Assembly: GCA_937928765.1 (NCBI GenBank)
Contig: CALFVX010000003.1
Location: 1 to 64,000 of the forward strand
DNA: 64,000 bases
Direction of reading: 5' to 3'
From: an uncultured Endomicrobiia bacterium
Lineage (GTDB): Bacteria; Elusimicrobiota; Endomicrobiia; DTEH01
In this document: piece after piece, positions 19,575-23,210 of the stretch
How the letters are laid out: each line of letters opens with the position of its first letter
How positions within the stretch are numbered: position 1 is the stretch's first letter
Made by a program: the position numbers and the translations under genes
Notes under the pieces: generated by a model
The model's input: the letters and a program-made list of their open reading frames with translations, nothing else
Database searches by the model: none
What the model was told of the DNA's origin: nothing

Positions 19575-20675
19575 TTAGCTATTAAAAAACATTGATAAAT
19601 TCTTTAAAGCTTTCAATTTTTCTTTACCTTCAATCTTTGCTTTATCAATTATGCATTTGAACAAATTTAATGTTTTATCGTAATTTCTTATATCTACCGG
19701 ATATGGATAACCATCCTTACCACCAAACGCAAATGAAAATCTTGCAGGATCTTTTGTTGATACAGGATAGCCATAAATAACTTCTGAAATTAACCCTAAA
19801 GCACGCAGTGTTTTTTGTCCTACACCATCAATTAATAACAAATCTTTAAATGAAGATAACTCTGTTGCTTTTATCTTTCTAAATATTTTATAAAGTTTTG
19901 TGGAATTAAAATCATCAGTTAATATATAATGTCTTTGTGGCAAAAATAAATCAGGTTGAAGTTTTGTCGACGAAATTTTTTTTATATCACTTATGATAGC
20001 ATCAAGCTTTTGTAAGCTTATATATTCAATTATGTTGTTTTGTAATTTATCAGAATTCTCATCTACAAAATTTAAAATATTAATTTCTTTTTTCTGTGTA
20101 GCAATACCAATATGTGGTGAAACAACAAATTTTTGTGATTCTGATTTTGTAGTTTTATTAAACCAGTGATACCTTCTTGCATATTTTAAATTTGTATTCA
20201 TACCCTGTTGTATAACACACCAATTGTTATTTTTATCTACAAAAATTGTATGATGATAAATCTGATATCCATCCTGAATACATGAATTATCAACTTTTGC
20301 AGTAAGTTTTGACAAAATTATAAAATTCTCGTGATTAGAAATTTTTTTACAGGATAGAATTTCTTTAGGTGTATTTATTGCAGTTTTACCTTTTCCACCG
20401 AAAATGTAAATCCCATATTCAGGATGGTTTTTAAACATTTCTTTTATTGCAGCAGTAACTGTTGTAGTAACACCTGAAGAATGCCAATCAAAGCCAGAAA
20501 TACAACCTAAAATTTGAAACCACACAGGATCTGAAAGTCGGTTAAGTAGTTCTTCTGTTGAAAATTCTAAAATTATAATTCTGCAGATTTCAAACAAAAG
20601 TTTTTTTTGTCGTTCAAAAAGCCACTTTGGCGCTTCGCCATAATGTAGAGGCAAATCAGCAATTTTGTGTTTCAT
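19575..20675 (-). CDS. DUF763 protein with helix-hairpin-helix region
   Basis: 366 residues from the start MKHKIADLPLHYG, which matches the family start; an ATG 9 bases upstream is also in frame. The N-terminus (ADLPLHYGEAPKWLFERQ), FDWHSSGVTTT and AFGGKDGYPYPVD are DUF763 hallmarks. LLLIDGVGQKTLRALGLI resembles a helix-hairpin-helix DNA-contact motif, so a nucleic-acid role is plausible. Conserved histidines and aspartates hint at an enzyme. It overlaps the 3' end of a photoproduct-lyase-like gene, so the two are coupled. Biochemical function not known to me. Confidence 0.85.
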   Translation of the reverse strand: MKHKIADLPLHYGEAPKWLFERQKKLLFEICRIIILEFSTEELLNRLSDPVWFQILGCISGFDWHSSGVTTTVTAAIKEMFKNHPEYGIYIFGGKGKTAINTPKEILSCKKISNHENFIILSKLTAKVDNSCIQDGYQIYHHTIFVDKNNNWCVIQQGMNTNLKYARRYHWFNKTTKSESQKFVVSPHIGIATQKKEINILNFVDENSDKLQNNIIEYISLQKLDAIISDIKKISSTKLQPDLFLPQRHYILTDDFNSTKLYKIFRKIKATELSSFKDLLLIDGVGQKTLRALGLISEVIYGYPVSTKDPARFSFAFGGKDGYPYPVDIRNYDKTLNLFKCIIDKAKIEGKEKLKALKNLSMFFNS

Positions 20676-21618
20676 CTTTAACATCAGTTAATTTTTTTAT
20701 TTTGAGATTGCAATCTTGCCATATATAATCAAATTCAAATGATAACAAGGTTTTTTTTAAAATTTCATCATTTGTAGATTTAATAAATTCAATAATTTTG
20801 TTATATATGGTGGTTCTTATAGGTCTTGAATATCTAAATTTAGCATCTTGACAGAGAAACATTTCAAAAAAACATAACTTACTTTTTCTCTCTTTTAAAA
20901 TTTTAAATTGTTTTTTTGTTAATCTTAGAGTTGACATTGTTATTGAATGTATTTTTTTTAAATTGATTGTTTCAAGCACAAGTTTTATTAAACTTTTGTA
21001 TTTCTCTATAATGTTTTCTACAGAAAAAATAATATCTTCGTATTTAATTCCATAAACAGGATAAATAATAATAGGTTCTAATCTTATGGCTAAATAAAAT
21101 CCTAAACTTTCTGCAAATTTTAATGATTCAATCCGTTGGTTAAGTGTTGCTGTATTATGTTCAAACTTTTTAATTGTTTCATTTAAAGACAAACTTGATG
21201 CGTAGATTAATTTCATGTTTTCAAAAAACAAATTTTTATTTAATTTCAAAATATTATTAGTTTTTGTTCTCAATTCTATATAACAAAATTTTTTATATTT
21301 TTTTGCTAAAAAAGAAATTATTTCTATAATTTTTTGTAAAAATTCGAAATGTTTTTCAGTAAGTAAGGAATCAGTTGTTTCTCCAAGATTAAAATAAAAT
21401 AATTCTCTGTCCGAATTAGAAAACAAAACTTTAGCCTCCTCTTCTAGTTTTTGATAATTTTTATAAATTACCGGAATAGTTGGTGTTTTTGAAAATTTTA
21501 AATAACAATATTCGCAACCTAAATTACAATTTGTTCCAAAAGAGATCACATATTCATTTAAATCAACAACATTTTTGCCATAATCATACTTGTTTATAAA
21601 AAAAGTTTTTCGTATCAT
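20656..21618 (-). CDS. radical SAM protein, spore photoproduct lyase-like (SplB family)
   Basis: 320 residues. The cluster motif is in TNCNLGCEYCYLKF (CX3CX2C), followed by TPTIPVIYKN. FNLGETTDSLLTEKH and IELRTKTNN match the pattern GExTDSL ... lElRTKs seen in spore-photoproduct-lyase-like enzymes, and RYSRPIRTTIYNKIIEFI the C-terminal pattern. Members use SAM radical chemistry to reverse UV thymine lesions, though many non-sporulator homologues are untested. It is the third gene of a four-gene overlapping unit: the 118-residue protein overlaps it by 4 bases (ATGA) and the DUF763 gene overlaps its end. Confidence 0.8.
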   Translation of the reverse strand: MIRKTFFINKYDYGKNVVDLNEYVISFGTNCNLGCEYCYLKFSKTPTIPVIYKNYQKLEEEAKVLFSNSDRELFYFNLGETTDSLLTEKHFEFLQKIIEIISFLAKKYKKFCYIELRTKTNNILKLNKNLFFENMKLIYASSLSLNETIKKFEHNTATLNQRIESLKFAESLGFYLAIRLEPIIIYPVYGIKYEDIIFSVENIIEKYKSLIKLVLETINLKKIHSITMSTLRLTKKQFKILKERKSKLCFFEMFLCQDAKFRYSRPIRTTIYNKIIEFIKSTNDEILKKTLLSFEFDYIWQDCNLKIKKLTDVKDETQNC

Positions 21619-21971
21619 AGTTTTGTTAATATTCCTTTTATCTCTGAATAATTCTTATGATTGCCAAACAATTCGGTTTCGTTAAATTCAAGGTTAGAAA
21701 AACCAACTTTTTTATGTGTTAAAAATTTTTTTATTTTTTGTATTTTGTTAAAACTTACAGGATAGCGTAGCTGTTGTATTGAATTAAAAAATTTCTTTTC
21801 AGCCTCAAACTTGTTTTTAGAACATACAGCTTCATTATACTTTTGTAGAAAAATTTTTTCTACTTCATCTGAAAAAATTGAAAGTATATCAAAAGTTTCT
21901 TTGACAAAATTTTTTTCAGATTGTGTTAAGTGAATTTCATTAGAGTTTAAAATTTTTTCTAAAATATTCAT
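21615..21971 (-). CDS. uncharacterised helical protein coupled to the SPL-like gene
   Basis: 118 residues, not recognised. Predicted mainly alpha-helical and highly charged (LTQSEKNFVKETFDILSIF; KNKFEAEKKFFNSIQQLRY), with no signal or membrane segment. Its stop overlaps the start of the photoproduct-lyase-like gene by 4 bases, and its own start overlaps the stop of a 51-residue membrane peptide by 4 bases. It could be an accessory subunit or a split-off N-terminal domain of the lyase-like protein. Confidence 0.75.
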   Translation of the reverse strand: MNILEKILNSNEIHLTQSEKNFVKETFDILSIFSDEVEKIFLQKYNEAVCSKNKFEAEKKFFNSIQQLRYPVSFNKIQKIKKFLTHKKVGFSNLEFNETELFGNHKNYSEIKGILTKL

Positions 21972-22123
21972 TTTTTCATTTTTACAAAATATAAAATAAA
22001 CATTGCAATAAAACCTAAAAATAGAAAAATTAAGGTTGAAAAAAATTTGTTGATTTTGTAATTACGGAATGCTTTTTTTAAATTTTTGAATATAATTATT
22101 TTCCATAAAAAATAAATTAGCAT
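21968..22123 (-). CDS. 51-residue single-pass membrane peptide heading the SPL/DUF763 unit
   Basis: ATG at 22123. The sequence starts MLIYFLWKIIIFKNLKKA, has a basic amphipathic stretch, then one strong membrane segment (STLIFLFLGFIAMFILYFV) and ends KMKK. The stop TGA overlaps the ATG of the next gene (ATGA at 21968-21971), the same junction type as used one gene later, which argues that it is real. No recognised family. No clear Shine-Dalgarno. It may anchor the repair-like complex at the membrane; that is only a guess. Confidence 0.55.
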   Translation of the reverse strand: MLIYFLWKIIIFKNLKKAFRNYKINKFFSTLIFLFLGFIAMFILYFVKMKK

Positions 22124-22139
22124 AATAATTTATAAAACT

Positions 22140-23210
22140 ATGATATCTATAATCACTCTAATTTTGGTATTTATTTTAACTGCTATACGACAAGTTGGAA
22201 ATTTAAAACTACAAATTTGGCAGATAATGTTTTTTGGTGCCTTAGTTGTTTTAATTACTAAAGAAATCTCTTTTATTGATGCTTATAAAGAAATTAATTT
22301 TGAAGTATTATTGTTTTTATTTAGTATGTTTGTGATAGGTTGTGGTATTGAAAGAAGCAGATATTTATCTCATCTAACATATAAAATTTTTAAAAAGACA
22401 AAAAACTTTAACCAACTTATATTATTGATACTTTTTTTAATAGGTTTGTCTTCAGCAATTCTTATGAACGACACAGTTGCAATTATTGCTACACCGGTAG
22501 TTCTTTTACTTTCAAAAAATACAATATAGAACCTAAATTACTTATTCTAATATTAGTGTTTGCAATAACTATAGTAAGTGTTACAACACCAACAGGTAAC
22601 CCACAAAATTTTATTATTGCTACAAATAGTGGTATAAAAAATTCTTTTTTAGTTTTTATAAAATATCTTTTTTTACCTACAATTTTAAATTTAATTTTTA
22701 CATTTTTTGTTTTAAAATTATTTTTAAAAAAATATTTTAAAAATTTTAATTTTGTTGTTGACCATTCACAAGAACCTATAAAAAATCATAACCTTGCAGT
22801 TTTGTCAAAAATTTCTATATATACTCTTTTGATATTAATTATTTTAAAAATTATTGTTTCGATATTAAAACCTAACATAGATATAAAATTGGTATATATT
22901 ACAACAATTTCTTGTTTACCTATAGTTGTTTTCAGTAAAGAAAGATTTAAAATTATCAAAAATGTTGATTACTATACATTTGATAAAAACTTACGCAGGT
23001 GTTAAAGAATTGATGGTTTTATCTGCAGCAAGTACAACAGCAGGTAATTTTACAATTATAGGTGCTGCAAGTAATGTTATAATAATTCATACAGCAGAAA
23101 GAAAACTTAGAAAGCATAATATTATAAAATTTTTTGATTTTATAAAAGTAGGTATTATAGTTACATTTATAAATTCGGCGGTGTATTCAATTTTTATATA
23201 TTTGGTTTAA
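22140..23210 (+). pseudogene. ion/anion transporter (ArsB/NhaD/CitM superfamily), frameshifted and internally deleted
   Basis: Three pieces belong to one ion-transporter-superfamily permease. The N-terminal part contains LSSAILMNDTVAIIATPVV, the middle VSVTTPTGNPQNFIIA, the C-terminal part STTAGNFTIIGAASNVIII. The first break is at the A run 22514-22519; adding one A gives LSKKYNIEPK and continuous homology. At about 22975-23000 the frame shifts again, and about 80 residues of the usual second half appear missing between DYYTF and GVKELMVLSAAS. Even when repaired the gene would encode only about 357 residues against a usual 410 or more. A dead gene rather than only a sequencing error. Confidence 0.82.

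Follow-up and report, generated by a model that had tools for sequence, protein, structure and literature searches.

Sequence comparisons indicate that a 118-residue protein (p118) and the radical SAM protein encoded beside it, which resembles spore photoproduct lyase (SPL), are the N-terminal and catalytic halves of one ancestral polypeptide. These comparisons support a two-chain SPL-like enzyme and do not support the four-gene membrane complex that an earlier note had proposed for this DNA. The window, the whole 64-kb stretch analyzed, comes from a 1.54 Mb MAG of the class Endomicrobia. Our ORF check recovered the four minus-strand ORFs of that note within 19575-22123, together with its two ATGA overlaps: a 51-residue frame (21968-22123) shares four bases with p118 (21615-21971) at 21968-21971, and the p118 stop overlaps the start of the 320-residue SPL-like protein (20656-21618) by four bases at 21615-21618. 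The last ORF encodes a DUF763 protein (longest ORF, 19575-20684). We place its start at the second ATG, 20675, because the N-termini of its relatives match there, giving a gene at 19575-20675 and settling an overlap previously given as 20-29 bases at 20 bases (20656-20675). The genes for p118, the SPL-like protein, and DUF763 are genuine and conserved, and they evolve under purifying selection, with dN/dS values against a congener (G002) of about 0.23, 0.23, and 0.17, respectively (NG86; dS is high, making these values approximate). Codon use in the 51-residue frame is non-coding-like.

A radical SAM enzyme divided between two genes

The strongest evidence for a split gene is the existence of fused homologues. 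Two genomes of another class (G046 and G047) encode single proteins of 396 and 410 residues in which a p118 domain is followed by a short SPL domain. These proteins rank top when a p118 HMM is searched against 2983 ORFs (E 4e-11 to 3e-9), and hhalign matches p118 to the fusion with a probability of 95.8% (E 8e-9). The catalytic part is 33% identical to the same proteins (E 3e-44). Like the split pair, the fusion has no SPL alpha/beta domain; it is the nearest relative in our tree, but it is one polypeptide and does not have two cysteines of the split proteins, C256 and C303.

The longer SPL-like proteins of the phylum point in the same direction. A helical "RYP" domain, to which no function has been assigned, precedes the radical SAM motif in all 17 long proteins checked in the class and is found within none of the eight short split proteins, and the RYP motif is conserved in p118. 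We thus read p118 as the detached N-terminal RYP domain, which would identify this domain as part of an SPL-like enzyme. When only the N-terminal domain of the long forms is compared, the profile match of p118 is modest (probability 83%, E 9e-6), and it shrinks to the RYP motif when family f1 is used by itself. The description of p118 as helical held up: an AF2 model built from two sequences contains helices, with block pLDDT of about 80-90 over residues 1-70 and a poorly predicted tail. Its description as a separate partner protein did not, given the fusion. Of the searches suggested earlier for the small proteins, the profile comparisons led from p118 to the G046/G047 fusion. For p118, Foldseek returned no structural relative (best E 3), a PDB sequence search nothing significant, and the SPL profiles no match.

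Both halves are retained in all eight split genomes, adjacent in seven and on separate contigs in one (G004). In two genomes of the same genus (G001 and G002), one of the same family (G003), and three of other families (G005, G008, and G011), the p118 orthologue lies immediately ahead of the SPL-like gene or next to it, and the junctions are close or overlapping. Gene order is thus conserved for this pair, and it is not conserved for DUF763 beyond the genus or for the 51-residue frame. Similarly, the proposal that tight coupling marks one functional unit survives for p118 and the SPL-like protein, which occur fused, but not for four proteins. The split proteins fall on one side of a branch (support 83/51) with G046 as sister (98/96), so the tree is most simply read as one split event at the base of families f1, f2, and f5, although this is not proven at that support.

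Catalytic residues and probable substrate

SPL reverses 5-thyminyl-5,6-dihydrothymine, and we know of no spores in the host group. The SPL-like protein passes the PF20903 SPL profile (49 bits; cut-off 27) and fails the SPL equivalog TIGR04070 (56.5 bits; cut-off 400), so that its earlier identification stands at the level of the superfamily profile and not of the equivalog. An SPL-like profile matches the SPL structure 4fhg (PDB 4FHC series) with E 2e-31; in the SPL profiles the match starts at SPL residue 77, and the protein is collinear with residues 77-268. Common to both are the radical SAM barrel and the CxxxCxxC motif, whose cluster cysteines (C31, C35, and C38) are invariant. The two tyrosines of the SPL CxYCY motif are also kept, as Y37 and Y39 of CEYCY, at the tyrosine relay positions Y97 and Y99 of the Bacillus subtilis enzyme. 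A second SPL-profile match in the same genome (G000:C42:3938-4537) is weak, at 24.6 bits, and below the cut-off.

Other features set the protein apart from SPL. The N-terminal alpha/beta domain (SPL residues 1-76) is missing, and an N-terminal helical domain is instead carried on a separate chain. Glu80 aligns with the C140 site of 4fhg and 4fhe, which corresponds to Cys141 of B. subtilis, the catalytic H-donor of SPL (PMC3742179, PMC5368176). Because this position is Glu and the SPL N-terminal domain is absent, reversal of spore photoproduct in the manner of SPL, as first proposed, appears unlikely. Residues specific to the split clade are Y11, Y13, C256, and C303; the two cysteines do not vary among the seven aligned split proteins and are candidate replacement H-donors. 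The SPL of Clostridium acetobutylicum uses C74 as an alternative H-donor cysteine. In the alignment of long and split forms, the split clade has Tyr, Leu, or Phe where the long forms have their upstream cysteines.

Of the 341 phylum genomes, 154 have SPL-like matches, and most of these matches lie in reading frames about 430-480 residues long. These long proteins belong to the same superfamily, have GE-x-x-DS in place of Cys141, and carry the RYP helical N-terminal domain. Unlike the split enzyme, they are single chains that include the SPL alpha/beta domain, and they have a CPC...C cluster ahead of the radical SAM motif where the split clade has YxY...L/F. We also observed SPL-like radical SAM proteins with GExxDSL or GExxDAL on IMG/VR contigs (L099-L104), with an adjacent pair in each of L100 and L102. 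The viral-contig proteins are distant (about 23% identical), and with respect to a mobile-element origin, close relatives of the SPL-like protein are absent from phage records and from plasmids. PADLOC gave no match that would indicate a defence role.

The neighbours of the long forms bear on the substrate. A UvrD/PcrA gene lies directly upstream of the long SPL-like gene in G019, and in family f15 it is preceded by a UvrD-family gene, YbaB, a CoA-binding protein, and an aldo-keto reductase (from a reading of four genomes, one of them annotated with Pfam), with no CoA-binding ORF seen in that block in G059. Loci L129, L130, L131, L134, and L135 have helicase neighbours. PNP_UDP_1 genes of the nucleoside phosphorylase family overlap the long SPL-like gene at its start in G023 (L133:2179-2895) and G034 (L126:3021-3722), and a PNP_UDP_1 protein is fused to the long enzyme in G024 (L015). 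This partner might be a 5'-deoxyadenosine nucleosidase that clears 5'-deoxyadenosine. Because long relatives have UvrD-type helicases as neighbours, and nucleoside phosphorylase-family proteins as neighbours or fusion partners, DNA repair is the favored role, and the DNA-repair flavor of the original proposal gains indirect support from the helicases. The case for a DNA substrate comes from what surrounds the distant long forms; the split genes that were read have no helicase next to them.

An alternative is an enzyme that modifies RNA or free nucleosides in place of repairing DNA. Spore photoproduct is not known in non-spore-formers, and the nucleoside phosphorylase-family partners would suit such a role. 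A nucleosidase would fit the clearance of 5'-deoxyadenosine equally well, however, and the UvrD-family and YbaB neighbours, together with SPL ancestry, favor DNA. We regard an RNA or nucleoside substrate as unlikely, and the enzyme probably acts on DNA.

The DUF763 gene and the 51-residue frame

The DUF763 protein matches PF05559 over its full length (E 1e-116; 389.7 bits, cut-off 35.5; profile positions 2-319 of 319) and contains the invariant GxDWHSSG, QDG, QQGM, ARRYHW, and GGKD motifs. Orthologues in G001, G002, and G004 are 71-75% identical. The one paper on DUF763 that we found in the open-access literature lists its species distribution (PMC554113). What distinguishes the present protein is that its gene lies beside an SPL-like gene. 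An HhH-like motif noted earlier in this protein receives weak backing: PF00633 is matched by four of 12 DUF763 members (best E 0.009), and similarity to the HhH of RuvA is weak (E 0.3). We rejected the idea of a glycosylase of the HhH-GPD type that would use a catalytic Lys, since the Lys of GVGxKT is not conserved. Sequence searches of the PDB with DUF763 gave nothing significant, and a single-sequence AF2 model reached a pLDDT of 36. We found no DUF763 in phage records and no viral homologues.

Among the 341 phylum genomes, five encode DUF763: three of this genus, G004, and G329. The gene adjoins the SPL-like gene in all three genomes of the genus and in none beyond; in G004 it lies on a different contig from the SPL-like gene, and in G329 on a different contig from the long SPL-like gene. 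It is absent from G003, G005, G008, and G011, all of which have the p118/SPL-like pair. The link between DUF763 and the SPL-like protein is thus lineage-specific. DUF763 is present on 230 plasmid records, mostly rhizobial, in heterogeneous neighbourhoods, and no close relative of the SPL-like protein was detected on these records. On the Rhodopseudomonas plasmid pBAL398.3 (L055), DUF763 directly follows an AlkB gene. In G329 (L060), it overlaps two genes: upstream, a radical SAM gene that has CxxxCxxC but is not SPL-like, and downstream, one resembling a phosphodiesterase gene.

Could DUF763 nevertheless be a genuine third component of the two-chain enzyme in this genus, binding or processing DNA? 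Its adjacency is kept across species whose SPL-like proteins are only about 60% identical, and an SPL-like gene is present in all five DUF763-bearing genomes. The AlkB gene directly upstream on one plasmid and the archaeal NreB genes that adjoin or overlap SplB-like genes (PMC4929162) also speak for such a role. But adjacency in one lineage amounts to about one evolutionary event, and the co-occurrence is not significant by itself, because all but one of the five genomes are closely related and SPL-like proteins are widespread in the phylum (154 of 341 genomes). We therefore consider this role possible but improbable.

There is very probably no gene in the 51-residue frame that was described previously as a single-pass membrane peptide. 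Searches of the same genome and of seven relatives gave no significant match to it. Its codon score is below that of 99.3% of 51-codon stretches from the long ORFs of the window, 32% of spurious ORFs score as well, and its G+C content is flat across codon positions (13, 15, and 19%). Its membrane-like appearance is expected, because the spacer is 15% G+C. Shuffling this spacer yielded a same-strand ORF of at least 45 residues in 1.4% of shuffles and one of at least 20 residues that terminates within the start codon of p118 in 4.7%; such a frame is therefore uncommon by chance but not extreme. A transporter gene stops 6-16 bases short of p118 in G001, G003, and G004, and the 51-residue sequence aligns collinearly, if weakly, to the transporter C-termini (summed shuffle p 0.002, post hoc). 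A possible explanation is that the frame is the decayed 3' end of a transporter gene. Beyond it, at 22140-23210 on the plus strand of the window, lies a CitMHS/ArsB-type transporter gene broken over three reading frames, either a pseudogene or an assembly error; two intact PF03600 genes occur elsewhere in the genome.

Membrane association is left unsupported, because the frame on which it was based is an unconvincing gene. A four-protein, membrane-associated complex for photoproduct or base-modification repair, including this peptide and DUF763, would account for the tight overlaps in the window and for the adjacency of DUF763 throughout the genus. It is nonetheless very doubtful when the peptide is unconserved, DUF763 is missing or unlinked in five genomes with both halves of the enzyme, and DUF763 is abundant on rhizobial plasmids that lack this SPL-like protein. 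Least probable of all is that p118 is a RiPP-like peptide and the radical SAM protein its modifying enzyme: a small protein is indeed encoded directly upstream, but p118 is a conserved helical domain that is fused to the enzyme in G046 and G047, is equivalent to the N-terminal domain of the long forms, and shows in its alignment neither a conserved C-terminal core nor a leader pattern.

Proposed mechanism and relation to known systems

The reading that we prefer, with reasonable though not high confidence in it as a whole, is a split, two-chain radical SAM enzyme whose target would be a modified base or a lesion in nucleic acid and which is unlikely to reverse spore photoproduct as SPL does, with DUF763 a later addition and the 51-residue frame uninvolved. 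The p118 and SPL-like chains would most likely reassemble, with p118 serving as a substrate- or DNA-holding module. Judging from its motif and homology, the barrel would bind a [4Fe-4S] cluster and SAM, and the 5'-deoxyadenosyl radical so made would attack the lesion or modified base. DUF763 would have entered the operon within this genus, and a helping role on DNA, for which support is weak, is possible; the 51-residue frame would play no part. A fuller version, in which this two-subunit enzyme repairs some DNA lesion that is not spore photoproduct, using a new H-donor arrangement, and DUF763 is its DNA-binding third component in the genus, is speculative and less likely than a third-component role for DUF763 taken alone.

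These results remove a false lead, as a four-gene membrane system at the locus is not supported, and the natural split provides a testable two-chain version of an SplB-like enzyme. The UvrD-type helicases beside the long relatives and the nucleoside phosphorylase-family domain attached to one of them offer concrete hypotheses on pathway and by-product handling. The function of SplB-like radical SAM proteins outside spore-formers is acknowledged as an open question (PMC4929162). The same source describes Nre proteins as unique to archaea, and its passages on the archaeal NreB/SplB-like pairs that we consulted mention no split catalytic protein. The parallel with these pairs makes a repair partnership for DUF763 plausible, if unproven: in both settings, an SplB-like radical SAM protein of a non-spore-former is encoded by a gene that adjoins or overlaps that of its neighbour, which in the archaea is the DNA-repair-linked NreB and here is DUF763.
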